NCBI RefSeq assembly: GCF_036417845.1
Contig: NC_090012.1
Span: forward strand, 186,001-250,000
DNA from: Apteryx mantelli
Lineage: Eukaryota; Chordata; Aves; Apterygiformes; Apterygidae
Direction: 5' to 3'
Length of the DNA stretch: 64,000 nucleotides
How positions within the stretch are numbered: position 1 is the stretch's first letter; the number at the start of each line of letters is the position of its first letter. The position numbers were made by a program, and so were the translations under genes. The notes beneath the pieces were generated by a model. The model saw only the letters and a list, made by a program, of their open reading frames with translations, had not been told where the DNA came from and did no database searches. Below, piece after piece: positions 1 through 44,894 of this stretch.

Positions 1-3000
1 TGGGCAAGGGTGAGCGAGAGCCGCCCGGACGCCTGGGTCCCTGCCGCGGCGGGGGGGGGGGGGGGGGGGCATCCGGATGCCTGGGTCCCCTTTTGGGGGG
101 GAGTCAGGGACTCCTGGGTCCCTTATTGAGGGATTGGGGGGGGTCCAGGGACTCCTGGGTCCCTTAATGGGGGATTGGGGGGGTCCCGGGACTCCTGGGT
201 CCCATATTGGGGGGGGGGTCTTGGGACTCCTGAGTCCCTAAAGGGGGGATTGGGGGGGTCCCAGGGCTCCTGGGCTCCCTAAGGGGGGGCTGGGGGGAGG
301 TTTGGGACTCCTGGGTCCTTTAATGGGGGATTGGGGGGGTCCCGGGCCTCCTGGGCTCCCTAAAGGGGGCTGGGGGGGGGTCTGGGACTCCTGGGTCCCA
401 TATTGGGGGGGGTCCAGGGACTCCTGGGTCCCTTAATGGGGGATTGGGGGGGGTCCCAGGACTCCTGGGCTCCCTAATGGGGGGCTGGGGGGGTCCCAGG
501 ACTCCTGGGTCCCATATTGGGGGGGGTCCTGGGACTCCTGAGTCCCTAAAGGGGGGATTGGGGGGGTCCCAGGACTCCTGGGCTCCCTAATGAGGGCCTG
601 GGGGGGGTCCCAGGACTCCTGGGTCCCACATTGGGGGGGGTCTTGGGACTCCTGGGTCTCTTACTGGGGAATTGGGGGGGGGTCCCAGGACTCCTAGGTC
701 CCTTATTGGGGGATTGAGGGGGGTCCCGGGACTCCTGGGCTCCCTAATAGGGGTCTGGGGGGGGTCTGGGACTCCTAGGTCCTTTATTGAGGGATTGGGG
801 GGAGTCCCAGGACTCCTGGGCTCCCTAATGAGGGGCTGGGGGGAGTCCCAGGACTCCTGGATCCCTTATTGAGGGATTGGGGGGGGTCCCAGGACTCCTG
901 GGTCCCATATTGGGGGGGGTCTTGGGACTCCTGGGTCCCTTATAGGGGGATTGGGGGGGTCCCAGGGCTCCTGGGCTCCCTAATGGGGGGCTGGGGGGGG
1001 TCTGGGACTCCTGGGTCCCTTAATGGGGGATTGGGGGGAGTCCCAGGACTCCTGGGCTCCCTAATGGGGGGCTGGGGGGGTCCCAGGACTCCTGGGTCCC
1101 ATATTGGGGGGGGTCTTGGGACTCCTGGGTCCTTTAATGGGGGATTGGGGGGATCCCAGGACTCCAGGGCTCCCTAATGGGGGATTGGGTGGGATCCCGG
1201 GGCTCCTGGGTCCCTTTATGGGGAGATTGGGGGTCCCAGGACTCCTGGACTCCCTAAAGGGGGGCAGGGGGGGTCCCAGGACACCTGGGTCCCCTCCTCA
1301 CCCCCCCCCCGTCCCCCCCGTTTCCCCCCCCCCCCCCAGTGTGCACCCAGCTGCTGGTGTCGCGGCCGGACGAGGAGAACATCACCGGTTACCTCCAGCT
1401 CCTCGAGAAGTGCCTGACGCACGAGGTAGGGGGGCCGGGGCGGGCTCCCGGATGCCTGGGCCCCCGCGGGGGGGTGCGGGGGGGTGCAGGGGGGTCCCGG
1501 CCCCCCCCCCTGACGCCCCCCCCCCCCCACCCCCGGCGCAGGCGTTCACGGAGACGCAGAAGAAGAGGCTCCTCTCCTGGAAGCAGCAAGTGCTGAAGCT
1601 GCTCCGGGCTTTCCCCAAGAAGGTGCCGCTCGACGTCCCCGGCTACCGGCCCCCCAAGGGGTAAGTGGGGGCCCGGGGGGGTCCCTATGTCCTTCCCCCC
1701 CCCGCCAGGGGGGTCTGGGGGTCCCCGGGGTGCCTCAGTTTCCCCCTAGGACCCTTCATGTGCCCTGCTTCCCCCCGTTCCAGGAGGTCTGGGGGGGGTG
1801 TTTCCCCCCCGGGGGGTCTTGGGCACCCCTGGGTGCCTCCTTATCCCCCGTGGGTGCCCCAGTGTCCCCCCCCCAAGTGTGTTGGGGGGGCCCTGGGTGC
1901 CTCAGTTTCCCCCCTGGAGGGGGTCTCAGGCCCCTTGGGTGCCCCAGTGCCCCCCTAAGAGTGTCAGGTTTCCCCCCGGGTGCCTCAGTTTCTCTCCTGG
2001 GGGGGTCTAGGGCCCCCCCGGGTGCTTCCTTATCCGCCTTGGGATCCCCCGGGTGCCTCAGTTTCCCCCTTGGGTGCCCCAGTGCCCCCTAAGAGTGTTT
2101 GGGGCCCCCCCAGGTGCCTCAGTTTCCCCCCCTGGGGGGTCTAGGGCCCCCCTGGGTGCCTCCTTATCCCCCTTGGGACCCCCTGGGTGCCTCACTTTCC
2201 CCCCGGGGGGGTTTGGGAGCCCCCCAGGTGCCTCCTTATCCCCCTTGGGACCCCCCGGTGCCTCACTTTCCCCCCGGGGGGGTTTGGGAGCCCCCCAGGT
2301 GCCTCCTTATCCCCCTTGGGACCCCCCGGGTGCCTCAGTTTCCCCCCGGGGGGGGTTGGGAGCCCCCCAGGTGCCTCCTTATCCCCCTTGGGACCCCCCG
2401 GGTGCCTCAGTTTCCCCCTGGGGGGGGGTTGGGGGCCCCCAGGTGCCCCTGGGGCTGGGTGGGGGGGCGTCTGGGGGTGCTGGCGCCGCCCTGACACCCC
2501 CCCCCCCGCTGTGTCCCCCCCCCAGCTGGGCCTTCGGCTCCAACTCGCTCCCCATAGCTGGCTCTGTGGGGGGGGCGGGGGGGCGGCGGGGGCAGCGCCC
2601 CTTCGCCCTGCCCCCCCGGGCGCTGCCCCCCGCCCGCCTGGGGCTCCTGGGCCCCGCCGCCATGGGGGGGGGGCCCGGACCTGCCCCCCGGCACCCGCTG
2701 GGTGGCCCCGCTGCCGCCCAGGGCCGGCAGGTGAGTGCGGGGGGGGGGGTGGTCCCGGACGCCTGGGCCCTTGGGGGTGTGTGGGGGGGTCCCAGATATT
2801 AGGGATCTGTTTGGGGGGGGGGGTCTTGGATGGTGGGGTCCATGGGGGGGTGGGGCTCCCGGACGCCTGGGTCCTTGGGGGTGTGTGTGGGGGTCCCACT
2901 TAGGGGGGGTCCTGGACACCTGGGACCTTGGGGGTGATGGGGGGGTACCGGACACCTGGGTCCTTTTGGGGGGGGGTCCCGGATGCCTGGGTCCTTGGGG

Positions 3001-6018: not shown

Positions 6019-12555
<6,537 letters not shown>

Positions 12556-12763: not shown

Positions 12764-15700
12764 ATGGCGGCGCCCCCTCAGCCGCAGCCGGGCCCGGGAC
12801 CGGCAGCCGCGTCGGGGCCGCCGCCGCCGCCGATGCCCGCGGGGCCGGGGCAGGCGCCGGGACCGGGGCAGGCGCCGGGGCCGCCGCTCCCGGCCCAGGT
12901 GGCGGCTGCGGCGGCGGCCGCGCAGGCGCAGGACTTCGACCCGGTGCAGCGCTTCAAGCTGCTCATCCCGCAGCTGAAGGAGAGCCTGCAGGTGGGCGGG
13001 GACTGCCGCGGGAAAGGGGCGGGGACTGCCGCCGGGGTGAGGCTGTGCTCGCAGCTGTTTCGGGGCGGGGCCTGCCGCCGGGATTCGGCGGCACTGGCAG
13101 CTGTTTGTGGGCGGGGCTTGCCGCCGGGGTGAGGCTGTGCTCGCAGCTGTTTCGGGGCGGGGCCTGCCGCCGGATTCGGCGGCGCTCACAGCTGTTTGCG
13201 GGCGGGGCTTGCCGCCGGGGTTTCGGCGCGGCGGAGGGCGGGGCCCGCCGCCGGATTTGGGAGGGGCTGCCGCCGGAATGGGGTGGGACCGGCGGGCGGG
13301 AAGGGGTGGTGTTGGAGGGCTGCTGGGAAGGGGCGTGGCCTGCCCGGGAGGGGCGGGGTCGAGCCCTTACTTGGCCGGGGGCGGAGGGGGGGGAGGGGTC
13401 CCTGTCCCCAGGTGTCCTGGGGGCGGGGGGGGGGAAGTCCCCAGGGGTCCCTTCCTGGGGGGTCCCTGTCCCCAAGGGACCTGGGGGGGGGGTGTCCCAG
13501 TCCCCAGGAGTCCCGGGGGGCGTGTCCCAGCCCCCATGTCCCTGCCTGGGTGTCCTGGGGGGTCCCTATCCCCAAGGGACCTGGGGGGGTTCCCTGCCCC
13601 CATGTCCCAGCCTGGGGGTCCCAGTCCCCAGGGGTCCTGGGGGCGGGGGGGGTCCCCAGGGGTCCCTGCCTGGGGGTCCAGGGGGGTCCCTGCCCCCATG
13701 CAGGGTGTCTGGGGGGGGGCGAAGCCCCTGTCCTGGGGGGCCCGAGGTGACACATGGGGCTGCAGGGGGCAGCGGGCAGAGCCAGGCCTCGGTCGTCGGT
13801 GTCCCCCCCCCCCCCGGGTGGCCGTGTCCCCCCTGGGTCCCTGTCTGTCACCCCCTGTCACCCCCCTGTCCCCCCCCCCAGACGCTGATGAAAGTGGCTG
13901 CCCAGAACCTGATGCAGAACTCGAACATCGACAACGGGCAGTGAGTGACGTCCCCGTCCCTGTCCCCCCCCCCGCACCCCCCCAGTTCCCTCTCCATGTC
14001 ACCAAGAGCCCCCCAGTGTCCCCCAATTCCCCCCCCAGCGACCTCCCAGTCCTACCCCAGTGCCCTAAATTCCCCCTCAAGTCCTCCCAGTCCCCCCACC
14101 CCCAGTCCATCCCAGTCTCGTCCCAGTGCTTCCCAGTCCCCTCCATTTCCCCTCCCAGTGCCCCCCAATCCCCCCCACGTCTCTCTAGTGTCTCCCAGAG
14201 CCCCCCAGTCCCCCAATTCCCCCCAGAGCCCCCAGTTTGTCCCAGTCTCGTCCCAGTGCTCCCCAGTCCTCTCTAATTCCCCCCAGTGTCTCTCAGGGCC
14301 CCCCCCAGAGCCCCCCAGTCTGTCCCAGTCTCCTCCCAGTCCCCCCCCAGCCCCCGCGAGCCCCCCCGTGGTCACGGTGGCGGCGGTGGCAGGCGTGTCC
14401 CCCGTCCCCCCCCCAGGAAAAGCGCCGACGGGGCCCTGCAGCGCTTCGACAAGAGCCTCGAGGAGTTTTATGCCCTCTGCGACCAGCTGGAGCTCTGCCT
14501 GGTGAGCCGCCGCGTCCCCGCGTCCCCCCTGGGGCGTCCCTGTGTCCCCCAGGTGTCCTCGTGTCCCCCGGGGTGTCCTCGTGTCCCCCCAGGGTGTCCT
14601 CGTGTCCCCCCGGGTGTCCTCGTGTCCCCCGGGGCATCCTCGTGTCCCCCCGGGGCGTCCTCGTGTCCCCCCGGGGCGTCCTCGTGTCCCCCCGGGCATC
14701 CTCGTGTCCCCCCGGGGCATCCTCGTGTCCCCCGGGGCGTCCTCGTGTCCCCCAGGGTGTCCTCAAGTCCCCCCGGGTGTCCTCGTGTACCCCGGGGCAT
14801 CCTCAAGTCCCCCAGGGTGTCCTCGTGTCCCCCCAGGGTGTCCTCGTGTCCCCCGGGGCATCCTTGTGTCCCCCAGGGTGTCCTCGTGTCCCCCCGGGCG
14901 TCCTCAAGTCCCCCCAGGGTGTCCTCGTGTACCCCGGGGCATCCTCATGTCCCCCAGGGCGTCCTCAAGTCCTCCCGGGTGTCCTCGTGTCCTCCCGGGT
15001 GTCCTCGTGTCCCCCGGGGCATCCTCAAGTCCCCCAGGGTGTCCTCGTGTCCCCCAGGGCGTCCTCAAGTCCCCCCGGGTGTCCTCATGTACCCCGGGGC
15101 ATCCTCATGTCCCCCCAGGGCGTCCTCGTGTCCCCCGGGGCGTCCTCGTGTCCCCCGGGGCATCCTCAAGTCCCCCAGGGTGTCCTCGTGTCCCCCCAGG
15201 GTGTCCTCGTGTCCCCCAGGGCGTTCTCAAGTCCCCCCGGGCGTCCTCGTGTCCCCCCGGGGCGTCCTCGTGTCCCCCCGGGCATCCTCGTGTCCCCCAG
15301 GGCGTCCTCGTGTCCCCCCGGGTGTCCTCGTGTCCCCCGGGGCGTCCTCGTGTCCCCCCGGGTGTCCTCAAGTCCCCCCGGGTGTCCTCGTGTCCCCCGG
15401 GGCATCCTCATGTCCCCCCAGGGTGTCCTCATGTCCCCCCAGGGCGTCCTCGTGTCCCCCGGGGCGTCCTCAAGGTCCCTGGGGTGCCCCTGTGTCTGCA
15501 TCAGGGTTTTCCCACATCCTTTGGGGTGTCCCCACGTCCCCTGCGGTGTCCCCGTGTCCCCCAGGGCATCCCTGCAGCCCCCGGGACGTCCCTCTGTCCC
15601 CCAGGGCATCCCCACGGCCCCCAGGGGTGTCTCTGCGTCCCCACCAGTGTGTGCCCACCTCCTTCGGGGCGTCCCCGCATCCCCCAGGGCGTCCTCATGT

Positions 15701-16667
15701 CCCCCGGGGCATCCCTGTGGTCCCCAGGGGTGTCCCTGTGTCCCCGCCTCCTTTGGGGTGTCCCCACGTCCCCCTGGCACGTCACCGTGGTCCCTGGTAC
15801 ATACCTGCGTCCCCCCCCGTGCGTCCCCGCATCCCCTAAGGCATCTTTGCATCCCCCGGGGGTGTCCCGTGTCCCCCTGGGGGTGTCATCACAGCCCTCT
15901 GGCCATTCCTGCGTCCCCTGAGGTGTCCCCATGTCCCCCCCAGGCCGTCCCCATGTCCCTGGGGTGTCCTGTGTCCCCCCACACGATCCCCACGGCCCCC
16001 AGGGTGTTCCCATGTCCCCCCCAGGCCATCCCCTTGTCCCCTGGGGTGTCCTCGTGTCCCCCTGGGCCGTCCCCATGTCCCCCAGGGTGTCCCCATGTCC
16101 CCCAGGGTGTTCCCACGGCCCCCGGGGTGTCCCCATGTCTCCCCCAGGCCATTCCCTTGTCCCCTGGGCCATCCCCGTGTCCCCCCTGAGCCGTCCCCAT
16201 GTCCCCCAGGCCATCCCCATGTCCCCCAGGGTGTTCCCACGGCCCCTGGGGTGTCCCCATGTCTCCCCAGGCCATCCCCATGTCCCCTGGGGTGTCCCCG
16301 TGTCCCCTGAGGTGTCCCCACAGCCTCCCCAGCCATCCCCACGTCCCCCCGGCCGTCCCTGCGTCCCCCCAGTGCCTCCCCCCGGCCGTCGCCGTCCCCC
16401 CGGGGCGGGCGGTGACGCCGCCGTCTCCGTCGCCGGCAGCGGCTGGCGCACGAGTGCCTCTCGCAGAGCTTCGACAGCGCCAAGCACTCGCCCACGCTGG
16501 TGCCCACGGCCACGAAGCCGGAGGCGGCGGCGGGCGAGAGCCTGCCCTACACGCAGTACCTGCCGCTCATCAAGGCGCAGATCGCCGGCGCCAAGGACAT
16601 CCACAACGCCCTGCTCGAGGGCGCCAACAAGATCACCGGCAAGCTGCCCCCCCCCGGTGCCCCCTAG
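12764..16667 (+). CDS. MED29: MED29, Mediator tail subunit 29, complete
   Basis: Small subunit of the Mediator coactivator (Drosophila Intersex homologue). Exons 12764-12991, 13882-13940, 14417-14501 and 16440-16667; all phases join and give 199 residues (human 200). A low-complexity Pro/Gly/Ala start is followed by AQDFDPVQRFKLLIPQLKES, then TLMKVAAQNLMQNSNIDNGQ, SADGALQRFDKSLEEFYALC, RLAHECLSQSFDSAKHSPTL and AKDIHNALLEGANKITGKL, which is the whole conserved core. Start: first ATG after the promoter, context AAGATGGCGG. Intron 3 is 1.9 kb of minisatellite. The last exon's end has been copied downstream (16673-17130). Confidence 0.96.
12992..13881. repeat. MED29 intron 1 repeats
   Basis: Two families. 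At 13000-13260, units of about 60 bp contain GGGGCCTGCCGCCGG, CGGCGGCGCT and CAGCTGTTT. At 13385-13740, units carry GTCCCCAGGGGTCCTGGGGG. Coding-looking frames here are repeat products. Confidence 0.7.
14540..16420. repeat. MED29 intron 3 minisatellite
   Basis: From 14540 to about 15475 a near-perfect 18-20 bp unit (GTCCTCGTGTCCCCCGGGGC and variants with AAGTCC or CATGTCC) repeats about fifty times. It then decays into 20-30 bp units with GTGTCCCCATGTCCCCC to 16420. Plus- and minus-strand frames of 400-650 codons here are artefacts of a unit length close to a multiple of three. Confidence 0.9.
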
Positions 16668-17260
16668 CCCCCCCCCCCCCCCCGCCAGGGTGCACGAGGG
16701 GCTGGGGGTGCTCGTCACCCCCGGGATGCCCCATGCAGGACACCGGGAGTGTCCCCAGCACCCTGTTTTGGGACGCTAACAGGATCAGCGGCAAGCTGTC
16801 GCGCCCCTGGTGCACCCTGACCGCGCACGAGGGTGCACGAGGGGCCGTGGGGTGCTCGTCACCCCGGGGACGCCCTGCGCGGGGCACCGGGGGTGTCCCC
16901 AGCACCCTGTTTTGGGACACTGACGGGATCAGCAGCAAGCTGTCCTGCCCCTGGTGCACCCTGACCGCGCACGAGGGTGCACGAGGGGCCGTGGGGTGCT
17001 CGTCCCCCCCGGGACACCCCATGTGGGGCACTGGGAGTGTCCCCAGCACCCTGTTTTGGGGCACTGATGGGATCAGCAGCAAGCTGTCACACCCCTGGTG
17101 CACCCTGACCGCGCACGAGGGTGCATGGGGGGGGGGTCTGTCACCCTGGGGGGGGCTCTGGGTGCCTCGCGCGTGCGGGGGTGTCTCTCCCCCCGGGGGG
17201 GGTTCTAGGTGCCTCGCACGAGGGTACCCGGGCCCCCGCCGCCGTGCAAATAAAGCTTTC
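16668..17260 (+). repeat. MED29: MED29 3'UTR with a 144-bp triplication derived from the coding end
   Basis: Three copies of a 144-bp unit share the landmark GGGATCAGC(A/G)GCAAGCTGTC at about 16782, 16926 and 17070. The landmark matches the MED29 coding end at 16630 (AAGATCACCGGCAAGCTG) with a few changes, so the array appears to have grown from the last exon. It ends before the AATAAA at 17249. Confidence 0.8.
17249..17254 (+). terminator. Polyadenylation signal AATAAA, MED29
   Basis: GCAAATAAAGC, the first canonical plus-strand signal after the MED29 stop codon, giving a 3'UTR of about 600 bases. Confidence 0.7.
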
Positions 17261-18050: not shown

Positions 18051-19160
18051 AGCTTCCCTTTCCCAACCCTGCTGCCGTCAGCAAAAGCAGAAGTGGGGCC
18101 AGGGTGGGGGGGGAAGTGCCCCCCTCCCACCCCCGCCCCTGGTGCATTGTGGGAGCCGGGGACTTCCCCGAGGGGGGGGGCACTGGGAGGTCTGGGGAGG
18201 GGGCGGCGGGGGCTCCCGCTGCCGCCTGGGCCGGGCCCCGTGCGTTGCACAAGCAGTGTGTGTGTGGGGGGGCGGGAATTGTGCCGGGGGGGGGGCACGA
18301 GCGTGCCCAGGCGTCGTGCGGGGGGGGGGGGGAGTCGCGGGAGGGCGCGTGCCGGCGGGGAGCCCTCGTGCGAGGCCGTGCGACCTGGCTGCGGTGCCGG
18401 CGCTCTCGCACGAGGGCCCCTCCCAGGCCGTGACGCCAGCGCCTGGCTCGCGGCAGCGCCGTGCGAACGCCGCCCCGGGCCCACCGTCAATTCCCAGCAG
18501 GGTGAGTCACCGGGGCCGAGCCCGGCGTCACGGGGCCGGCCGGGCGCGCGTGCGAGGCTCAGCTTCCTCTCGCTCCGGCCCCGGCACGTTTCTGGGAACC
18601 CCCCCGCGGCCGGGCCAGACCGGGCCACCCCCCCTTCCCCGTGCCCCCAGCTTGACCCTGCCGCAGCACGTGGCCTCTCACGAAGGCCTGAGCCTCCCCC
18701 TTTCCCCCCTCCCGCACTAGGTGGGCTGAGGCTGGACACAGCTCGTGTCACCTAAGCCCCACCCTGCTCCCTTCCCCCATGCTAGGCGGGCTGAGGCTGG
18801 GCACAACTTGTGTCACCCAAGGCCCCCCCCCACACACACACCCCCTGTGCTAGGCAGGCTGAGGCCGGACACAACTTGTGTCATGTCAGGGCTGTGCCCC
18901 CCCCCCCCCCCCGCCGCGCTCCTCCGCGGAGGGCCCGGCCACGCCCCCGCCGCGCTCGGCCACGCCCCGTGAGCTCAGCCACGCCCTTCCGTGACCGGCC
19001 GCGCGACCCTTGAGCTCATGGTCACGCCCCCCTCCGTCGGGAGAGACCACGCCCCCCGAGCTCTCGGCCCCGCCGGGAGCGGACCCGCCCCGCCCCGCCC
19101 CACCCTGGTGAGCTCATGGCCCCGCCCCCGGTGAGGTCATGCCGTGGGCGGGGCCGAGCG
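18051..19160. other. Intergenic spacer between MED29 and ZFP36
   Basis: Unique-looking GC-rich DNA with scattered GCACGAG motifs. Three units of about 65-70 bp at 18717-18890 share GCTAGGCGGGCTGAGGC and ACAACTTGTGTCA. At 18920-19135 short CCACGCCCC (GC-box-like) units lead into the ZFP36 promoter. I see no gene. Confidence 0.5.
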
Positions 19161-19163
19161 GCC

Positions 19164-19172
19164 TGATAAAGG
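19164..19172 (+). promoter_or_regulatory. TATA-like element of ZFP36
   Basis: TGATAAAGG after a GGGCGGGGCC box, about 88 bases upstream of the ATG at 19253. The spacing fits a short 5'UTR. Confidence 0.5.
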
Positions 19173-19252
19173 CGCCGCTCGGCGTCGGGGGAGTCGCTGT
19201 CGCCGCCGCCCCGCACCGGCCCGAACTGGCCCGAACCGGCCCGGCCGCCGCC

Positions 19253-21152
19253 ATGACCGCCGCCGCTGCACTCGACCCCGCCCCGGCTCCCGGCCTCCAG
19301 GTACCGGTGCCCGCCCGTTCCCGGCCTCTTCGCCCCGGTGTCTTCCCCGCGGCCGGGCCCTCCGGTGGCCCCGGGACCCCCCTGGACCCCTGCGGGACCC
19401 CCCTGTCCCTTGGGGCTTCCGCCGAATCCCGGCCCGCGCCCGTCCCTGGGATCCCTTCCCGCCTCGGGGGCTCTTGTTTTCCCCCCTTAAATCCCGGGAG
19501 CCCCCAAATCTTGAGGATCTCCCTCCTTTGAGCCCCCCCCCTTGTCCCTTTCGTCACCCCCGCGACCCCCAGATCCCTCTTAGGGGTCCCTCAGCCCCCC
19601 TGGGAGCCTCCGTTTTCCCTTGGTCCCCCTCAAATCCCACCCCGGGGACCTGGTGCTTCCGCTTGGGGTCCCTTGGCCACCCTGGGACCTTCCGTTTTCC
19701 CTCGGTCCCCCCCCAAATCCCACTCCAGGGACCTGCTGGCTCCCTTCGGGGTCCCTCGGCTGCCTTGGGACCTTCCGTTTTCCCTCGGTCCCCCCCCAAA
19801 TTCCACTCCAGGGACCTGCTGGCTCCCTTCGGCGTCCCTCGGCTGCCCTAGGACCTTCCGTTTTCCCTTGGTCCCCCCCCAAATCCCACTCCAGGGACCT
19901 GCTGGCTCCCTTCGGGGTCCCTCGGCTGCCTTGGGACCTTCCGTTTTCCCTCGGTCCCCCCCAAATTCCACTCCAGGGACTTGCTGGCTCCCTTCGGCGT
20001 CCCTCGGCTGCCCTAGGACCTTCCGTTTTCCCTTGGTCCCCCCCCAAATCCCACTCCAGGGACTTGCTGGCTCCCTTCGGGGTCCCTCGGCTGCCCTAGG
20101 ACCTTCCGTTTTCCCTCGGTCCCCCCCTGGATCCCACTCTGGGCACCTGCTGGTTCCCCTCGGGGTTCCTCAGTCCCCCCCCCCCCCCCAAGGACCCACT
20201 TTGTCCCTTTTTTTCCCTCTCTCAAATACAACCCAGGTCCTTTAGGGTCCTTAGGGACCCTGTTCCCGCTGCCCCAAGGCGGGTGTCACCCCGCTCCCTC
20301 CGTCCCTCTCCTGACCTGCGTCCCCTCCCTGTCCCTCCGCAGAGCCTCTTCAGCCGGCAGCCGAGCCCGGAGCCGCCGTCGTCGGAGCCCGCCTGGCCGC
20401 CGCGCTCGCCCTGGAGCCCGGAGCCGCCACCGCAGCAGCCGCCAGACCTGGGTCGCCTGCTGCGCTCGGTGAGCGCCCCCGAGGGCCGGGCCGTGCCCCC
20501 GCCGCCCGGCTTCGCCCCGCTGCCCCCGCGCTCCCCGCCGGGGCTGCCGCCGGCGCTGGCCGCTTCCGTCTCGGCCCTGTCGTCGTCCATCTCGGCGCTG
20601 TCGTCCCTGGGCTCGCCGCTGGCACCCTCGCAGGTGCCGCCGGCGCCCCGCGCCTCGGCGCTGCCGCTGCTGGGCCGAGCGCTGTCGTCGCCGGCGCCCG
20701 GTGCCCCCCCGCTGTCGCCCCCCGGCCCGGCGCTGTCGCCCCGCTACAAGACGGAGCTGTGCCGCACTTTCAGCGAGACGGGCCGCTGCCGCTACGGCGC
20801 CAAGTGCCAGTTCGCCCACGGGGCCGGCGAGCTGCGGGGGCTCAGCCGGCACCCCAAATACAAGACGGAGCTGTGCCTCAAGTACCTGCAGTTCGGCAGC
20901 TGCCCCTACGGCTCCCGCTGCCACTTCATCCACGGCCCCGAGGAGCGGGAGCCGGGGGGGACCGGCCCCCCGCGCGAGGCCCGCGCTGCTGCCACCGCGG
21001 TGGTGCCACCGCCGCCGCCGGGGGCCGTGTGCCGGGGGGCCACGCTGGGCGAGCCGGCGGGTTGCCGCTGCTGCTGCTGCTGGGGGGCCGCGGCCCCCCC
21101 CGCCGGCCCCCGCCGCCTCCCCATCTTCGACCGCATCTCCGTGTCCGACTGA
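19253..21152 (+). CDS. ZFP36: ZFP36 (tristetraprolin), CCCH tandem zinc-finger mRNA-decay factor
   Basis: Binds UUAUUUAUU elements in cytokine mRNAs and recruits the CCR4-NOT deadenylase. Exon 1 is 19253-19300 ([16 protein letters not shown]) and exon 2 is 20343-21152, giving 285 residues (human 326). Residues about 175-245 hold two CCCH fingers with exact C-x8-C-x5-C-x3-H spacing, each led by the family signature YKTELC ([32 protein letters not shown]). PPPPGFAPL upstream and the end [13 protein letters not shown] match tristetraprolin; the latter is the CNOT1-binding tail. Position after PAF1-MED29 is the ZFP36 locus, not that of ZFP36L1 or ZFP36L2. Two exons, as in mammals. The middle is Ala/Pro/Ser rich, with a CRCCCCW run near residue 264. 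The 3'UTR carries two perfect target nonamers, implying self-regulation. Confidence 0.94.
19600..20160. repeat. ZFP36 intron 1, 83-bp tandem repeat
   Basis: About six copies of an 83-bp unit with landmark GGGACCTTCCGTTTTCCCT at about 19684, 19767, 19850 and 19933 onward. Frames on both strands are shadows. Confidence 0.85.
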
Positions 21153-22200
21153 GGAAGGGGGCGCGGGGACCCGCTTTGGGCGCTCCTGAGGGGGTGGAAG
21201 GGACCTTCTTTTGGGTGCCCCCCCATGGGGCAATGGGGACCCCCCCCCAGATGCTCCATGGGCCATGAGGACCCTCTTTGGGTGCTCTCTTAGGGCAGTG
21301 GGGACCCCCTTTTTGGTCCCTGGGTGATGGGGGACCCTCTTTGGGTGCCCCCCACCCCCCCAAGGGGGCAGTGGGGACCCCCCCCAGATGATCCATGGGT
21401 GATGGGGACCCTCTTTGGGTGCCCCCTGGCAATGGGGTTCCCCCCCCCATGGCCGAGGGACACCCTTCCTGCACCTGTTTTTTGGGTGCCCTATGGGTGA
21501 AGCGGGAAGGGGATCCCTTTTTTGCCCCCCCCCGGGGTATTTGGGGGGGCAATTATGTAGCAGATGCCCAGGGTGGGGGACACCCCTGGGTGCTCCCAAC
21601 CTTGTTATAAAAGCTTTAATTAGGGGAGGGGGGATGGGCAGGCCCTGCCCTCCTTCCCCAGCCCCCGGGGGGGGGGGGGCAAAACTGTGACCGGGGTGGG
21701 GTGGGGGGGAGGGTGGTGGTATTTATGGCTTTATTTATTGCCCCGCTCCGGCTTGGGGATGGGCCCAGGCGTCCGGGGTCCCTCTGTGGGTGGGGGGGGC
21801 TCCCAGGTCCCCCCCCCCCCCCCAGTGTCCACAGTTTGGGGGCTGCCTCCCCCCCCCCAACCCCCCCAGCGGGGGTAAATCTGCCCCCCTCCCCGGGGCA
21901 ATCGGTGCCTTGCATTAATCTGACGCTGAGGGAAGCTGCGGCCCCCCCCCCCCCCCCCCCGGACGCCTGGGCCCCCCCCTGCTGCCCCCAGCCTGGTGCT
22001 AACTCCCCCCCCCCCAAACACACACACACACTATTTATGGACTTATTTATTGGTGAAAATTTTGTACCGTATTTATCTTTTTTGTAATTTTGGGGAGAGT
22101 TGCTCTATTTTCCGCCTCTCGGTTCCTTCGCCGCCTCCCTCGGCGGGGGGGGGGGGGGGAAACGCCCTGTTTTGGTGAATAAACCATCTCCCGCCCTCGC
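21153..22200 (+). other. ZFP36: ZFP36 3'UTR with AU-rich elements
   Basis: In otherwise GC-rich DNA two AT islands stand out. They hold TTATTTATT nonamers at 21731-21739 and 22043-22051 and TATTTAT cores at 21720-21726, 22032-22038 and 22070-22076. These are the optimal tristetraprolin-binding sites. Mammalian ZFP36 mRNA carries the same kind of element and is autoregulated. The UTR ends at AATAAA, 22178-22183. Confidence 0.8.
22178..22183 (+). terminator. Polyadenylation signal AATAAA, ZFP36
   Basis: GTGAATAAACC about 1 kb after the stop codon, just downstream of the AU-rich elements. Confidence 0.75.
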
Positions 22201-23449: not shown

Positions 23450-23455
23450 TTTATT
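23450..23455 (-). terminator. Polyadenylation signal AATAAA for the minus-strand gene at 24673-25224
   Basis: Plus-strand TTTATT, the first minus-strand AATAAA after the stop at 24673. If used, the 3'UTR of that gene contains the whole 97-bp repeat array. Confidence 0.4.
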
Positions 23456-23559
23456 CCCTCCCGTGACCGGACCCCCCCCCATTCCTGTGTGTCCCCCCCC
23501 CAAACATGCGTGTCCCCCCCCAAAACATGTGTGTCCCCCCCCCCCGGAACCCAATCCAA

Positions 23560-24640
23560 GGTCCTGTCCCAGCTCCGTCGTCCCCCTGGAGCCAAATCCT
23601 CCCCGTGGAGGGGGTCCCATGGGGTGGCGGATCCCATCCCGGCAGCTCCGTCATCCCACGAAGGTCCCCATCATCCTCGACCTGGGAGTGATGTGACGTC
23701 CCCATGGGGAGGTCCCGTGGGGTTGGAGGTCCCATGCCAGCAGCTCCGTCATCCCATGAAGGTCCCTGTCATCCTCGATCCCAGGGGATGTGACATCCCC
23801 ATGGGGAGGTGACAAGGGGTGATGGATTCCCTCCTGGTAGCTCCATCGTCCCATGAAGGTCCCCATCATCCTCAACCCGGGGGGGACACGATATCCCCAT
23901 GGGGGGGGGGTCCCATCCCAGTGGCTCCACCATCCAATGAAGGTCCTCATCATCCTGGAGCCGGGGGGATGTGATGTCCCCACGGGGAGGTCCCACAGGC
24001 TGGGGGGTCCCATCCCGGTGGCTCCATTGCCCCACAAAGGTCCCCATCATCCTCGACCTGGGGGGATGTGATGTCCCCATGGGGGGGTCCCATGGGCTGG
24101 AGGGACCCATTCCAGTGGCTCCATCAACCCACGAAGGTCCCCATCATCCTTGACCCGGGCGGGGATGTGACGTCCCCACGGGAGATCCCACAGGGTGGTG
24201 GATCCCATTCCAGCAGCTCCATCATCCCACGAAGGTCCCCATCATCCTCAAGCCGGGGGTGATGTGATATCCCCATGGGGGGGGGGGGGGTCCATCCCAT
24301 CCCGGTGGCTCCATCATCCCACAAAGGTCCCCGTCATCCTCAACCCAGCGAGGGGGCGATGTGACATCCCCATGGAGGGGGGGTCCATCCCCTCCCGGGT
24401 GGCTCCATCATCCCATGAAGGTCCCCATCGTCCTTGATTCCGGGGGGGGGGGGGGATGTGACGTCCCCATGGGGAGATCCCACGGGGTGGTGGATCCCAT
24501 CCCAGTTGCTCCATCATCCCACGAAGGTCCCCGTCATCCTCAACCCAGCGAGGGGAGCGATGTGACATCCCCATGGAGGAAGGGGTGGGGGGTCCATCCC
24601 ATCCCAGGTGGCTCCGTCATCCCCCGCAGGTCTCCGCGGT
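23560..24640. repeat. 97-bp tandem repeat, about 11 copies
   Basis: Unit of about 95-100 bp with landmark CATCATCCCACGAAGGTCCCC, near 23655, 23752, 23850, 23935, 24030, 24126, 24224, 24320, 24414 and 24515. A second landmark is GATGTGACATCCCCATGGGG. It abuts the end of the unassigned minus-strand gene. Confidence 0.85.
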
Positions 24641-24672
24641 CGGGGGGGCCGGGAAGAGGGGGGGGAATCCCC

Positions 24673-25224
24673 TCACTCCTCCTTGCCGGGGGGCTCCGTG
24701 CTGCCGTCGTCCCTGTCGTCTCCGTTGTCCCTGTTGTCCCCGTTGTCCCTGTTGTCCCTGTGGTCTCCATCGTCCCCGTGGTCCCCGGGGGCACCGGGGG
24801 GCCGAGCTGGCAGCAGCCGCAGCCGCAGCACCGGCCCCACGAGGAAGCGCTCGGCGGCCAGGGCGACGGCGGCGGCAGCCAACGCGTGCCGGGGCGCCGG
24901 CAGGGCGGCGACGACGTCGGCGACGGCTTCGGCCACCGCGGAGCCCGGAGGGGGGGGGACAACGGCGACGACGGCGGCGGCCACGGCGCGCAGCAGCAGC
25001 CCCGGCGCCAGGGCGGCCAGCGCGTAGAGCAGCGCCCGGAGCGGGCGGCAGAAGCGGCCCCGCAAGCGGCCCCGCAGCCCCTCCAGCGCCAGCCCCCCGG
25101 CGCCCCACAGCGGCAGCGCCCAGGCCCGGCCCCCCGGCGCCCCCAGCGCCGCCGCCGCCCCCCAACCCTGCAGCCCGTAGATGTAGGCTCGCGCCAGGGG
25201 TCCCAGCGCCCGCCCGGCCCCCAT
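24673..25224 (-). CDS. Unassigned small Ala/Leu-rich hydrophobic protein, single coding exon
   Basis: A 183-residue frame starting at ATG 25224 (context GCGGCCATGGGG) and ending at 24673. It starts MGAGRALGPLARAYIYGLQG and has hydrophobic stretches at about 18-50, 65-92 and 105-130, suggesting two or three membrane or amphipathic segments. The tail is a short repeat of Gly, Asp, Asn and Arg (GDNRDNGDDRDDG) ending GKEE. A C-tract plus AG lies 15 bases upstream of the ATG, so a non-coding first exon is likely; good minus-strand donors sit near 26023 and 26055. I do not recognise the family. For it: Kozak context, acceptor, downstream AATAAA, promoter-like upstream DNA. Against it: composition this biased can produce open frames by chance. 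It occupies the place held by PLEKHG2 and RPS16 in human. Confidence 0.5.
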   Translation of the reverse strand: MGAGRALGPLARAYIYGLQGWGAAAALGAPGGRAWALPLWGAGGLALEGLRGRLRGRFCRPLRALLYALAALAPGLLLRAVAAAVVAVVPPPPGSAVAEAVADVVAALPAPRHALAAAAVALAAERFLVGPVLRLRLLPARPPGAPGDHGDDGDHRDNRDNGDNRDNGDDRDDGSTEPPGKEE

Positions 25225-28045: not shown

Positions 28046-38717
<10,672 letters not shown>

Positions 38718-39698: not shown

Positions 39699-42600
39699 AT
39701 GGCGGCGGCGGTGGCGGCAGCGGCGGCGGCGGCGGTGGGGCGGGTGCTGGCGGGCGGCGGGGCCCGCGCCGCGCTCGGCGGCTGCCGCGGCTGCCGGGGC
39801 CGCCCCGCGCTGGCCCGCGCCGCCCGCGCCAACGGCACCGCCAGCGGCACCGCCACCGCCACCGAAGCGGTGCTGCAGGAGCGGCTGCGGCGGCACCAGG
39901 TGGGCGGGGCCGGGGGCGGGGCCGCCGGGGCGGATTTGGGCCTGGGGGATTGGGGGGGGGGCGAGTGGGGGGGTCAAGGGGGGGCAAGAGGGGCCTGAGG
40001 GGGGGCAGGTGGGGGCGAGGTGGGGCTGGGGGGTATTTCGGGGGGTCCTGGAGGGGCAGGTGGGGTCAAGGGGGGTCTGGGGGTATTTGGGGGGGCTGGC
40101 AGGGCCAAGGGGGGCCCTGAGGGGACCTGGGGGGGTAGGAGGGGCAAAGGGGGGGGCTGGGGGCAGTTGGGGGGGGAGCAGGGGGCAAGTGTGGCCAAGA
40201 AGGTGCCCGGGGGGGCAGGTGGGGTGGCCTTGGGGGCAGACAGGGTTGGGGGGGGGACAAGTTTGCACCAGGGGGACATGGGGGGCAGGTGGGGTCCCTG
40301 GGGGGGGCAGGTGGGGTAAATGGGGGGGGCTGGGGGGCAGTTGAGGGACACAGGAGGCAGGGAGAGGTGAAGAGGAGATTTGGGGGGGGGGCAGGTGACA
40401 GAAGGGGAGGGGTGACAAATTTGGGCCGGGGGGGGTAGTTTGGGGGATATTAGGACAAATTTGGGGCCGGGAGAGGGGGGGCGGCCAGTGGAGCCCTCCC
40501 CGGGGCTCCTTCGATGTCCCCAGATGTCCCCAGGGCTCCCAGGTGGTGCCTAACCCTCCCGGGGGCTCCCTCGATGTCCCTGGGGTTCACGGCTTGTCCC
40601 CAGATGTCCCCCGGGCTCCCAAGGTGTCCCTTAATGTCCCCAGCCCTCCCCTGGCCATCCCCAGGGCTCTCTGGGTCTCCCCTGGTGTCCCTGGGGCTCC
40701 CTGGGCGTCCCCTGATGTCCCCAACCCTCCCTGGCCATCCCTGGGGCTTCCTGGGTATCCCCCGATGTCCCCAACTCTCCTTGGCTGTCCCTGGGTGTCC
40801 CCTAGTGTCCCCAACTCTCCCTGGCTGTCACTGGGGCTCTCTGGGCCTCCCCTGATGTCCCCAACCCTCCCTGGGTGTCCCCAGGGCCCCTTGGATGTCC
40901 CTGGGGCTTCCTAGGCATTCCCTCATGTCCCTGGGGTTCCTTGGCTGTCCCCAACCCTTCCTGGCTGTTCCTGGGGCTCCCTGAGGTCCCCAGGACTCCC
41001 AGGTCATCTCCAGCCGTTCCTGGATGTCCTGGGGTTTCCCTGGGTGTCCTCCAACGTCCCCGAGGCTCCTTGGGCGTCCCTTAAAGTCCCCAACCCTCCC
41101 TGTCCGTCCCTGGGGCTCCCTTGGACGTCCCCCGACATCCCCAGGGCTCCTTGGATGTCCCTGTGGCTCCCTGGGCCTCCTCTGATGTCCCCATCCCTCC
41201 CTGGCCATCCCTGGGGCTTCCTGGGCATCCCTTAATGTCCCCAATCCTCCTTTGGATGTCCTTGTGGCTCCCTGGGCCCCCCCTGATGTCCCCAACTGTC
41301 CCTGGGTGTCCCCTAGTGTCCCCAACCCTCCCCGGCCATCTCTTGGGCTCCCTTGGACATCCCCAGGGCTCCCTGGGCATCCTCGAGGCTCCCTGGGTGT
41401 CCCCAGGGCCACTTGAACATCCCCGGTGCTCACGGGTGCCCTGTCCCTGTCCCCATGTCCCCCCCTCCTGGCAGGCAGCGGCAGGGGGGGGCGCCCCGGG
41501 CTCCGACGAGGGGCAGGAGCGGGAGCGGAAGCGGGAGCAGGCGGCCTACGCCCGGCGGGTGCTGCTGCGCCTGGCGGGGCTGCTGGGCGCCGGCGCCGGC
41601 GCCACCGTCCTCTACGTCTTCGGTGAGTCCCCGAGCGCCGTCCCCGTCCCCAAGCTGTCCCCGAGCCCCCGTCCCCCCCGCCCTGCTCACCGCCCCGCTC
41701 TCCCCTCCCGCAGGCAGCAACGCCCTGGACGAGCACGGCGCCAAGGTGAGGCCTCGCTAACGAAGCCGGGGGGGGGGGGGGGATTAATTAGGGCGGCAGC
41801 CCCCCGACGCGGCGGGGACGGGGAGGTGCTGCGTCCCCCTGTGTCCCCCCCCCCCCATCCCCACATCCGTGGGCAGGGCCGGAAAAAGCCCCGTTGCGGA
41901 GGTGTCGGAGGTGGTTTGATGTGCGGATCCCCGCTGGGACGAGCCGAGGTGCCAACGACCCCCCCGACCCCCCCCCCCCCCCGGCCGCGGCCCCCGCGAC
42001 ATCAAACGAGCCGCGGCGGAAACGAGGAGGCCAAATTGCCGCCGCGCCGGAGCCCCCCGCGGGCGCCGAAACGCCCCGAAACTGGGGGGGGAAGGGGGGG
42101 CTACCCTTTTTTTCCCCTTTTTCTCCCCCATTTCTCGCCTCCCCCCCGCAGATCCCCGACGAGTTCGACAGCGGTGAGTCCTCGCGGCCGGCGCGGAGCC
42201 CCGGGGGGGGCAAAGGGGGGGCGCGAGCCCGGAGCGGCGGCTTTTCGGCCCCCGTTTGGCCGCTGCCGCCCCCAAAAGCAGCTTTTTTTTCCCATAGCCG
42301 CTTTGTACGGAGAGCGGAGGAACCCGCTGGCGGGGGGGAACTTCCCTGCGGCCCCCCCGGGGGGTAAAACGCGGGGGAACCGGCCGGAAAATCGAGACCT
42401 TTTGGGGGAAAAAAGGTTTTTTTATGATGCAAATGGAGAGGGGAAGCTGGAGGGGGGTGGGGAGGGTCTTGCAGGGAGGAAGAGGAGGAGGAGGAGGCCC
42501 GCAGGGGGGTTAAATGTCACCTTGGTGCCACCCTGGGGGGGGTCCCGGGGCCGCGGTGGGGAGGGGAGGGGAGGGGACCCGGCCCGTCCTCACCGCCGCT

Positions 42601-44894
42601 TCGCAGACCCCGTGGTGATCCAGCAGCTCCGGAGGACCTACAAGTACTTCAAGGACTATCGGCAGGTAGGGGACGGGGGTGTCCCCACCGCGGGGGCTTC
42701 GTCCCACCACGAGGGTTTGGCCCCACCTTGGGGTTTTGCCCCATGGGAGCTTTGTCCCCATGATGGGGGGGTTTGTCCCCACCACGGGGGTTTGTCCCCA
42801 CCGTGGGGCTTCGTCCCATGGTGGGAGTTGTGTCCCCGTGATGAAGGTTTTGTCCCCACCATGGGCATTTTTCCCCACCATGGGGTTTCGTCCCAGTGGG
42901 ATCTGTGTCCCCACGATGGGAGTTGTGTCCCCACCTGGGGGGTTTCGTCCCCATGGGATCTTTGCCCCCACGATGGGGGTTGTGTCCCCACCATGAAGGT
43001 TCGTCCCAAACGCGGGGCTTCGTCCCATGGTGGGAGTTGCGTCCCCACGATGAACGTTTTGTCCCCGCCACGGGCGTTTCTCCCCACCTTGGGGCTTCAT
43101 CCCCATGGGATCTTCGTCCCCATGATGGGGGGGGGGGTTGTCCCCACCATGGGTCACCGTCCCCTCACCCCCGCGTGCCCTGCAGATGATCATCGAGCCC
43201 ACCAGCCCCAAGCTGCTGCCGGACCCGCTGCGCGAGCCCTACTACCAGCCGCCCTACACCCTCGTCATCGAGCTCACCGACGTCCTGCTGCACCCCGAGT
43301 GGTCGGTGAGTCCCGCCGCCGCGTCCCCTTCTGCCCGGGGGCAGGACGGGACACGTGGGTGGCCCCCCCCCTTACCTGTCCTCGTCCCCAGCTCGTCACC
43401 GGCTGGCGCTTCAAGAAGCGCCCGGGCATCGAGAGCCTCTTCCAGCAGCTGGCCCCGCTCTACGAGATCGTCGTCTTCACCTCCGAGACCGGCATGGTGA
43501 GGGGCACGCGGTGGTGGCAGCTGGGTGGGGGGGGGACGCGGCTCGGTGACACCCGCTGACACCCCACTTTCCCTCGTTTACCCCCCCCCCCCCCCCAAGA
43601 CCGCCTTCCCCCTCATCGACAGCGTCGACCCCCACGGCTTCGTCTCCTACCGCCTCTTCCGCGACGCCACCCGCTACATGGACGGGCACCACGTGAAGGT
43701 ACCGGGGGCCGCGGGGAGGGGACGCCCGCGGCGGCGGCGGCGGTGCCAGCTCCCTGCCAACCCTTCCTTGTCCCCCCCGTCCCCTTCCTCCAGGACATCT
43801 CCTGCCTCAACAGAGACCCCGCCAAGGTGGTGGTGGTGGATTGCCGCAAGGAGGCCTTCTGCCTGCAGCCCTACAACGGGCTGGCGCTGGCCCGCTGGGA
43901 CGGCAACTCCGACGACCGGACCCTCTACGACCTCGCCGCCTTCCTCAAGAGTGAGAAACGGGGGGGTGTGTGTGGGGGGGTCCCTGGGGGGGTTTGGCCC
44001 CCGCGCTGACGCTGTCCCCGTCCCCATCCCCGCAGCCATCGCCCTGAGCGGCGTCGAGGACGTGCGCACGGTGCTGGAGAACTACTCGCTGGAGGACGAC
44101 CCGCTGGCCGCCTTCAAGCGGCGCCAGTCGCAGCTGGAGCAGGTGGGGACGGAGCCGGCGGCGTCCCACGTCCCCCTGCCGTTAACGGTGTCCCCCTGCC
44201 ACCACCATCAACGGTGTTTTCCCCCGCCACCGCCGCCGTTAATGGCATCCCGGTCCCCCTGCCGTTAACGGTGTCCCCCTCCTCGCTGCCACCATCAACG
44301 GTGTTTTCCCCCGCCACCGCCACCGTTAATGGCATCCCGGTCCCCCTGCCCTTAACGGTGTCCCAGTGTCCCCCCTGCCACCACTGTTAACAGCATCCTG
44401 GTGTCCCCCCCGCCACCACCGTTAATGGCATCCGGGTGTCCCCTGGCTGCTGTCGTTAATGGCATCCCGGCATCCCCCCACCCCCGCCACCATTAACGAC
44501 ATCCCCCTGCCGTTAACGGCATCCCGGTGTCCCCGCCACTGCCACCGTTAACAACGTCCCCCTGCCGCCACTGTTAACGACATCCCCCTGCCATTAATGG
44601 CATCCCAGTGTCCCCCCGCTGCTGCCGTTAACGACGTCCCCCCGCCGTTAACGGCATCCCGGTGTCCCTACCACTGCCACCGTTAACAACGTCCCCCCAC
44701 CGCCACCGTTAATGACATCCCGGCATGTCCCGCCACCGCCGCCGTTAATGGCGCGCCGGCACGGGCTCTTTCTTTCCCGCCGCGGGCAGGAGGAGCAGCA
44801 GCGGCTCGCCGACCTCTCGCAGGGCAAACAGGGGCCCCAGCTCTTCCTGGGCTCCCTCGCCGGCCGCCTCTGGCCCCGCTCCAAGCAGCAGTGA
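39699..44894 (+). CDS. TIMM50: TIMM50, mitochondrial TIM23-complex receptor, complete
   Basis: Inner-membrane subunit that receives preproteins from TOM and passes them to TIM23. Exons: 39699-39899, 41475-41622, 41714-41745, 42152-42173, 42607-42665, 43186-43305, 43392-43496, 43600-43698, 43794-43950, 44036-44142, 44790-44894; all phases join, giving 384 residues (human 353). An Ala/Arg-rich targeting N-terminus (about 1-60) is followed by one transmembrane helix at about 97-116 ([20 protein letters not shown]) and the FCP1-like intermembrane-space domain ([60 protein letters not shown]). The phosphatase DxDx motif is replaced (IELTDVLL), as in other TIMM50 proteins. It ends LWPRSKQQ. No defects. 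Confidence 0.97.
39900..41474. repeat. TIMM50 intron 1 repeats
   Basis: First half: G-rich units (GGGGGCAGGTGGGG). From 40500 to 41450: units of about 50-60 bp of GATGTCCCCAACCCTCCCTGG and CCTGGGGCTCCCTGGG. Frames on both strands are shadows. Confidence 0.8.
42666..43185. repeat. TIMM50 intron 5 minisatellite
   Basis: About twenty units of 20-27 bp: TTTGTCCCCACCATGGGGG, TTCGTCCCATGGGAG. A long plus-strand frame joining exons through it is not a transcript. Confidence 0.8.
44143..44789. repeat. TIMM50 intron 10, GTTAACGG minisatellite
   Basis: Units of about 25-45 bp with CCGTTAACGGTGTCCCCC, CCGTTAATGGCATCCCGG and GCCACCACC. Shares the GTTAAC core with 38890-39260. Confidence 0.8.

Follow-up and report, generated by a model that had tools for sequence, protein, structure and literature searches.

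An apparently intact tristetraprolin (ZFP36) gene on a dot-chromosome-like contig of what is most likely a bird genome

Do birds possess tristetraprolin (TTP, encoded by ZFP36), the protein which switches off inflammatory messages? Papers published from 2020 to 2024, among them PMC10616675 and PMC9168486, repeat that they do not, as a sequence-only reading of the present locus had also noted. The absence has been presented there as nature's own experiment on TTP (PMC10616675) and as a difference between bird and mammalian immunity, beside the severe immunopathology seen in virus-killed birds (PMC9168486). This analysis of a 64 kb stretch of DNA, hereafter the window, indicates that a bird genome apparently carries an intact tristetraprolin gene, contrary to the published loss. 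If the gene is intact and also expressed, arguments drawn from avian TTP absence would fall, and the TTP-TNF feedback loop would become testable in birds, with the sequence in hand.

The gene extends over positions 19253-22183 of the window, the latter being the last base of its AATAAA signal, and its two exons join in phase 0 into a complete product of 285 residues, in line with the structure proposed earlier (Table 1). The start codon lies within GCCGCCGCCATGA and is directly preceded by GCCGCCGCC, at the 3' end of a short leader which, with its TATA-like element, forms a putative promoter. The donor of exon 1 (CAG/GTACCG) is not optimal; a PAF1 exon of the same window, apparently ending at 9054, is followed by GTACCGGTG, as at the ZFP36 donor. 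The acceptor of exon 2 reads CCTCCGCAG/AG. The intron, which contains a tandem-repeat array at 19579-20171, is located immediately 5' of the SLFS codons, the human ZFP36 intron having the corresponding place before the SLLS codons. An antisense frame of 478 residues (20286-21722) overlaps the stretch of exon 2, so that open-frame length is no evidence for ZFP36; the case for the gene was built on homology, splice phase and synteny.

Table 1. Features of the ZFP36 locus and its neighbours (window coordinates).
Feature	Position	Strand	Evidence
PAF1 exons, upstream neighbour	6124..11164	-	Pfam Paf1 4.5e-15 on 7661-7834
MED29 exons, immediate upstream neighbour	12923..16667	+	PDB Mediator subunit 29, 109.3 bits, and Pfam Med29, on 16416-16667
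5' leader and TATA-like element	19160..19252	+	TGATAAAGG at 19164; sequence reading
ZFP36 exon 1, coding, 16 codons	19253..19300	+	translation and splice context; phase-0 donor
Sole ZFP36 intron, 1042 nt	19301..20342	+	57% tandem repeat, unit ~83 nt (TRF)
ZFP36 exon 2, coding, 269 codons and TGA	20343..21152	+	translation, Pfam, PDB match
RSVSAP, predicted S52-type MK2/14-3-3 site, residues 57-62	20463..20480	+	motif scan
PPPPGFAPL, first tetraproline motif, residues 68-76	20496..20522	+	motif scan
Tandem CCCH domain (RYKTELC...CHFIHGPEE), residues 150-217	20742..20945	+	Pfam zf-CCCH x2, PDB 1m9o
Predicted CNOT1-binding-type C-terminal tail, 13 residues	21111..21149	+	alignment with human and mouse TTP; comparison with own ZFP36L1/L2
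UUAUUUAUU nonamer 1, ZFP36 3'UTR	21731..21739	+	motif scan
UUAUUUAUU nonamer 2, ZFP36 3'UTR	22043..22051	+	motif scan
Poly(A) signal AATAAA of ZFP36	22178..22183	+	motif scan
SUPT5H/SPT5 exons, downstream neighbour	28046..38711	+	PDB SPT5 171.1 bits on 30003-30260; Pfam Spt5-NGN, KOW6_SPT5
TIMM50-like gene, NLI-interacting-factor phosphatase domain	42273..44154	+	Pfam NIF 2.1e-11 on 43785-43958

The translated product clearly displays the features of the family. Both fingers fit C-x8-C-x5-C-x3-H (residues 156-175 and 194-213) and are led by (R/K)YKTEL, all eight zinc ligands are present (8/8), and both were recognised by Pfam zf-CCCH on the exon 2 product (5.4e-23), which bears out the two fingers with YKTELC leads read from the letters. 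PPPPGFAPL, one of two PPPPG motifs, and the CNOT1-type tail were likewise found, so named before, and a predicted CNOT1-binding motif is indeed present at the C terminus. With mammalian TTP, the window gene shares the two-exon structure, the finger pair, the PPPPG motifs, the S52-type site, the RRLPIF-RISVS tail, the AU-rich 3'UTR, a location between MED29 and SUPT5H and, as in the human gene, a phase-0 intron shortly after the first codons. By contrast, the window protein is shorter (285 residues versus 326 in human), has two PPPPG motifs where the human protein presumably has three, carries about 45 extra residues before the fingers in the alignment, and has an N-terminal export-signal region that is hardly recognisable when set beside mammalian TTP. 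Viral contigs and prokaryote genomes were also searched for related proteins, as possible stray vertebrate sequences; they gave 58 and 595 pattern matches, respectively, none of which was confirmed.

Finger and tail motifs are common to the whole family, and the gene could in principle have arisen by divergence from ZFP36L1 or ZFP36L2, with which, as encoded in the same genome, it shares the finger domain architecture, the RRLPIF tail and 48 and 47 of 68 finger positions, respectively. Identity with human TTP reaches 55/68, and the best PDB match of the exon 2 product is 1m9o, the tristetraprolin finger domain (120.9 bits), versus 103.0 bits for 1rgo (butyrate response factor 2). At the 20 positions that differ between the TTP and TIS11D structures, the window protein agrees with TTP at nine, with TIS11D at two and with neither at nine. 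In a full-length tree of seven rows, it formed a group with TTP of human and mouse at 100/100, whereas placements with L1 and with L2 were rejected (p-AU 4e-6 and 6e-97, respectively). A weaker tree, built from the fingers only and rooted among distant outgroups, drew it towards the L1/L2 side, at a fork (81/51) between TTP and these paralogues; the clade with TTP was not recovered in this tree, where forcing it costs 1.5 log units (p-AU 0.08), but joining the vertebrate L1/L2 rows was rejected there too (p-AU 0.006).

Both paralogues, moreover, reside at separate loci of the genome (ZFP36L1 at C4, ZFP36L2 at C3), with finger domains identical or nearly so to the human ones (68/68 for L1, 67/68 for L2); the window ZFP36 evolves faster than they do. 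Their finger leads P-F-E-E and tails RLSISDD are absent from the window protein. With the exon 2 product as query, to which the 16 residues encoded by exon 1 do not belong, Tis11B_N, the N-terminal domain of human L1, gave no match up to E = 10; as controls, human ZFP36L1 scored 3.1e-36 and human ZFP36 gave no match. An L1 or L2 identity is rejected on this absence from the exon 2 product and on both tree tests, TTP synteny at the locus also speaks against it, and we give the diverged-copy explanation virtually no credence. The identification as ZFP36, not L1 or L2, is upheld by the full-length tree and by the paralogues' own loci.

The gene order in the window is PAF1(-), MED29(+), ZFP36(+), SUPT5H(+), as single exons matched in Pfam show for each neighbour, PDB adding further matches for MED29 and SUPT5H; the PAF1-MED29-ZFP36 order reported before is therein confirmed. 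PAF1-MED29-ZFP36-SUPT5H is the mammalian order also. In human, PLEKHG2 and RPS16 presumably lie between ZFP36 and SUPT5H; neither was seen in the window. Further exons of PAF1, MED29 and SUPT5H were located by composition scan and putatively assigned to their genes, and TIMM50 is the name that position suggests for the last gene of Table 1. Poly(A) signals of MED29 and SUPT5H were found at 17249 and 38840, respectively, and the window had no Rfam match at the gathering threshold. A screen for exon copies with 43 exon pieces returned six rows of at least 42.1 bits, none being a copy in a neighbouring intron. The end of a PAF1 exon does occur in a second copy, acceptor included, which this automated screen had missed and which was spotted by eye and confirmed by alignment.

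Is the genome that of a bird? Most likely so, as had been supposed, since its globin genes are closest to bird haemoglobins and the contig resembles an avian dot chromosome. With the beta-globin exon of this genome as query, the best 12 of the 60 PDB matches listed scored 149.2-140.1 bits and are birds, where the organism could be assigned; a gamma chain, presumably human, followed at 131.7 bits, and 1v75, presumably tortoise, scored 130.0 bits. The alphaA-globin exon gave 140.3 bits with the best single chain, versus 110.8 bits with 8wix, presumably crocodile. Three alpha-type globin matches were found on C16 and four beta-type ones clustered on C1, in an assembly of 1.50 Gb. These data, together with the dot-chromosome-like introns, argue against a non-avian contig (another sauropsid or contamination), in favour of which it may be noted that the PDB haemoglobins were assigned to organisms provisionally and that four exact patterns of CR1-type tail octamers found none in the window; such an origin seems very improbable. 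A search for cytochrome b gave a single match, which is interrupted by internal stops and probably of nuclear origin.

The contig is GC-rich and measures 1.73 Mb, GC at the ZFP36 locus ranges from 0.65 to 0.81 in 400-base steps, and the median TRF coverage of window introns is 57% (15 chosen introns, with approximate borders). Tandem-repeat-filled introns on a very small GC-rich chromosome, as on avian dot chromosomes, were thus found here, the chicken values for comparison being those of PMC12954441. TNF, IRF3, IRF9, LAT and others are hidden avian genes of such chromosomes (PMC12954441), and the present gene resembles them in its high GC, G/C runs, repeat-filled introns and long reputation of being missing; it differs in that three papers on missing avian genes do not mention ZFP36 in their main texts. 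The earlier proposal that extreme GC content hid the gene fits both the GC values and this class of genes, and may explain the published absence.

Does the gene make a functional protein? The nonamer UUAUUUAUU, an optimal TTP-binding sequence, occurs twice in the 64 kb on both strands together, both times within the ZFP36 3'UTR. UAUUUAU occurs five times on the forward strand, always in this 3'UTR, and never on the reverse strand; none of 2000 dinucleotide shuffles of the 3'UTR reached either motif count. A TNF gene of the same genome also has two nonamers after its stop codon. The DNA of a predicted TTP-TNF decay circuit is therefore present in this genome. From a mechanistic point of view, and by analogy with the TTP family, inflammatory stimulation would induce ZFP36, whose protein would bind UUAUUUAUU in TNF-like mRNAs and, through its tail, recruit CCR4-NOT, leading to their deadenylation; ZFP36 would also repress its own mRNA. 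We consider it highly probable that the window holds a single-copy bird orthologue of ZFP36, on a dot-type microchromosome, making a working mRNA-decay protein.

A decaying or unexpressed relic, inactivated recently enough for its frame to be still open and leaving the bird functionally without TTP as the literature has it, appears improbable. The branch of the window protein is long (0.62), its composition is odd and the serine-rich C-terminal half has been lost; the short serine-free region between finger 2 and tail and the faint export-signal region could reflect relaxed constraint. Nevertheless, the gene has kept its frame, its splice sites, all eight ligands and the tail, as well as its poly(A) signal and its AU-rich elements, and the nonamer count of the 3'UTR is far above chance. 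In simulated neutral decay, which ignored indels and is a rough guide only, frame and ligands persisted in 319/2000 copies at 0.05 changes per site, as a recent relic would allow, but in only 1/2000 at 0.2. As far as the DNA goes, in frame, splice sites, ligands and tail, the earlier claim of intact survival is borne out.

Regulation of such a working protein may differ from that of mammalian TTP. RSVSAP was matched against the 14-3-3 and MK2 consensus. Of the two serines of the mouse protein (S52 and S178), the S52-type one is present; no serine occurs between finger 2 and RISVSD, unlike in mammalian TTP, and the S178-type site is therefore gone. The equivalent serines are kept in the genome's own L1 and L2 (HSFSF, HSLSF). 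These paired serines are a regulatory feature and are not decisive for orthology. With no S178-type serine left, MK2 would have to work mainly via the S52-type site, further candidates being a tail serine and VCRGAT (residue 245), a threonine-ended pattern and the one after finger 2 among five loose MK2 patterns in the protein. Inhibiting the window protein may consequently be more difficult than inhibiting mammalian TTP. More tentatively, birds might have kept TTP in a re-wired, hard-to-inhibit form. Lacking the serine-rich C-terminal half as well as an S178-type serine, this form would partly resemble the hyperactive S52A/S178A mouse protein, and p38-MK2 signalling would extend the life of TNF mRNA to a smaller degree than it does in mammals. 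We hold this to be rather unlikely, slightly the more so because of the loose threonine-ended pattern after finger 2. If it were true, a TTP that is de-repressed by nature, and its action on TNF, would determine the inflammatory set-point of birds. Avian TNF, the target concerned, was itself long thought to be missing.

The sequence-only reading had claimed a complete two-exon ZFP36 gene with two CCCH fingers, and both claims are borne out by the frame, the phase-0 GT-AG intron and homology of the fingers to known domains. The start codon lies in a good context, a single frame stays open as far as a TGA, and the C-terminus carries a putative tail of the CNOT1-binding type (coordinates are collected in the table below). 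A 478-residue open frame runs antisense to the gene; long open frames are frequent in this DNA, and the case was therefore built on homology. Indeed, the exon 2 product matched zf-CCCH in Pfam (5.4e-23), and its best solved structure was the finger domain of tristetraprolin (TTP, the ZFP36 product; 1m9o, 120.9 bits), followed by butyrate response factor 2 (103.0 bits). A ZFP36 gene intact at the DNA level in a bird is thus well supported. The gene adds a member to an established family and, judged from its parts, its product probably works as TTP.

ZFP36 features in the window (nt) or in the protein (residues)
Feature	Position	Strand	Remark
Coding exons	19253-19300 + 20343-21152	+	joined, 285-residue protein
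CCCH fingers, C-x8-C-x5-C-x3-H	residues 156-175, 194-213		8/8 ligands present
PPPPG motifs	residues 68 and 239
RSVSAP site	residues 57-62
Poly(A) signal	22178		downstream of AU-rich elements

The interest of this gene is that it contradicts a cited gene loss. The conclusion that birds lack TTP reportedly comes from Lai et al. As the sequence-only reading had it, this is indeed stated or repeated in the literature, in five papers (PMC7352335, PMC8484758, PMC9168486, PMC10616675, PMC10949775). The open literature covered contained no recognisable report of ZFP36 in birds, phrases such as 'chicken ZFP36' or 'avian tristetraprolin' retrieved no paper, and ZFP36 is absent from the main texts of PMC12954441, PMC4290089 and PMC11745021. 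This search covered main texts and passages of open papers, and automatic annotation may therefore already name ZFP36 in some bird.

At E <= 0.001, the exon 2 protein matched three places in the genome: the window, contig C3, which holds ZFP36L2 (MSTTLLSAFYDIDFLCKV..., RRLPIFSRLSISDD), and contig C4, which holds ZFP36L1 (NKMLNYSPPGVGGCLLDRKAVGTP..., RRLPIFSRLSISDD), both named by comparison with what we take to be the human sequences. A full-length tree (7 rows, 301/605 columns) joined the window protein to the TTP of human and mouse (support 100/100); forcing it with L1 or L2 was rejected (p-AU 4e-6 and 6e-97, respectively); the human and mouse rows are presumed sequences, and the window row shows a long branch and an odd composition. 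A finger-only tree (12 rows, distant outgroups) sided less clearly with ZFP36: it rejected placement with vertebrate L1/L2 (p-AU 0.006) and gave the window protein an intermediate position, with TTP on one side and L1/L2 on the other (81/51), without a clade of window and TTP, which when forced gave p-AU 0.08. The TTP and TIS11D structures differ at 20 finger positions; in the window protein, 9 of these match TTP, 2 match TIS11D and 9 match neither. Tis11B_N, a domain of L1/L2, had no match in the exon 2 product at E <= 10, and the presumed human L1 sequence matched it at 3.1e-36. A reading of the gene as L1 or L2 is rejected on the tree tests, the lack of Tis11B_N in the exon 2 product and the separate L1 and L2 loci.

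The sequence-only reading had taken the DNA to be avian, in line with the globins of this assembly (1,504,198,195 bases, 408 contigs; the window lies on C35, of 1,728,699 bases). Ten globin matches were found; three of them lie on C16, and a further four are clustered on C1. The beta and alphaA exons are closest to haemoglobins that we take to be those of birds. Beta exon 2 matched 239 PDB sequences; among the best 60, the top 12 (149.2-140.1 bits) were, with presumed organisms in brackets, 3eok (duck), 3a59 (ostrich), 1hbr (chicken), 1faw (goose), 2qmb (row of 12rh; turkey), 1a4f (bar-headed goose), 3mjp (quail), 3wr1 (cormorant), 3wtg (emu), 2zfb (parakeet) and 2r80 (pigeon), together with 9h0m. 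Gamma chains, presumably human, came next at 131.7 bits, and 1v75, presumably tortoise, scored 130.0; in the two beta alignments shown, the query differs at 5/74 positions in each, so the source species is neither of these two. For the alphaA exon, the best single chain was 3a59 (140.3 bits), 8wix, presumably crocodile, reached 110.8, and the top six rows, which matched twice each, are presumably engineered human double chains. The sole cytochrome b match reported for the assembly (C5:76869236-76869688) contains four TGA and one TAA, and hence could be mitochondrial DNA copied into the nucleus; no intact mitochondrial gene for cytochrome b was detected.

The claimed order PAF1-MED29-ZFP36 also held: PAF1 (minus), MED29, ZFP36 and SUPT5H (all plus) succeed one another, followed by a TIMM50-like gene. 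Pfam matches to one or two exons per gene identified PAF1, MED29 and SUPT5H, with additional PDB matches for MED29 and SUPT5H; the remaining exons of these genes came from a composition scan and were assigned on our assumption. This is the mammalian order except for PLEKHG2 and RPS16, located in human between ZFP36 and SUPT5H. Neither was seen by composition scan in window 22.2-28.0 kb, and the ribosomal S9 family has three matches genome-wide, all on C1. A possible gene convergent with ZFP36 (23450-25206, minus) shows an open frame that contains MGAGRALGPLARAYIYGLQGW..., together with an AATAAA on the minus strand at 23450; its 24673-25206 part had no Pfam match at E <= 1. An EF-hand exon lies at 54914-54988 (+), and an F-box exon at 62746-63108 (-) presumably resembles FBXO46; human FBXO46 is megabases away from SUPT5H, so the order differs beyond TIMM50.

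Tandem repeats covered a median of 57% of 15 introns of PAF1, MED29, ZFP36 and SUPT5H (hand-chosen, borders approximate), 57% of the ZFP36 intron and 46% of the whole window. One MED29 intron is filled by a 1.8-kb array of ~20-nt units (14513-16359, 97% coverage). In this respect the introns resemble those on the dot chromosomes of birds; for chicken dot chromosomes, Hron et al. (2026, PMC12954441) give medians of 7-93%, and near zero elsewhere. The 5' end of one PAF1 exon occurs, along with the AATAG acceptor, as a tandem duplicate (9287-9376, minus), similar to the 'exon stuttering' described in that paper; an automated exon-copy screen missed this copy and detected no other.

The window protein differs from mammalian TTP in its regulatory sites. 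Between finger 2 and RISVSD it has zero serines and three threonines, so that the S178-type serine (an MK2/14-3-3 site, mouse TTP numbering) is gone, whereas L1 and L2 of the same genome keep HSFSF and HSLSF there. Five loose MK2 patterns were found in the protein, of which RSVSAP alone fits 14-3-3 mode I; the one past finger 2, VCRGAT (residue 245), has threonine as its terminal residue. Losing the S178-type site alone would not be equivalent, in its predicted regulatory effect, to the double change of the hyperactive S52A/S178A mouse protein. The finger domain is identical to presumed human TTP at 55/68 positions, as against 68/68 for L1 and 67/68 for L2 with their presumed human counterparts; ZFP36 therefore evolves faster, possibly under relaxed constraint. 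In a rough neutral-decay simulation, with substitutions and without indels, 319, 57, 1 and 0 of 2000 copies kept frame and ligands at 0.05, 0.1, 0.2 and 0.3 changes/site, which makes an old pseudogene unlikely; a very recent one is possible, in line with the 319 copies surviving at the lowest divergence.

According to a review (PMC8484758), TTP mRNA itself carries AU-rich elements with which the TTP protein interacts. Both nonamers (UUAUUUAUU) found on either strand of the 64-kb window fall in the ZFP36 3'UTR, as do all five heptamers (UAUUUAU; all plus strand), and neither count was reached when 21153-22200 was shuffled 2000 times with its dinucleotides preserved. The TNF family was found at nine places in the genome, where the translation of C105:72078-72542, the last part of a gene and the only part read, was closest to TNF (90.5 bits; lymphotoxin-alpha next, 63). 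Two nonamers and five heptamers lie 638-895 nt past its stop codon (2500 nt scanned), with an AATAAA at 963 nt. In a single genome, the genes for the decay factor and for the mRNA that is its classical target thus both show the sequence elements one would expect. The C105 TNF gene is GC-rich, and its 9.9-kb stretch contains one further nonamer, on the opposite strand.
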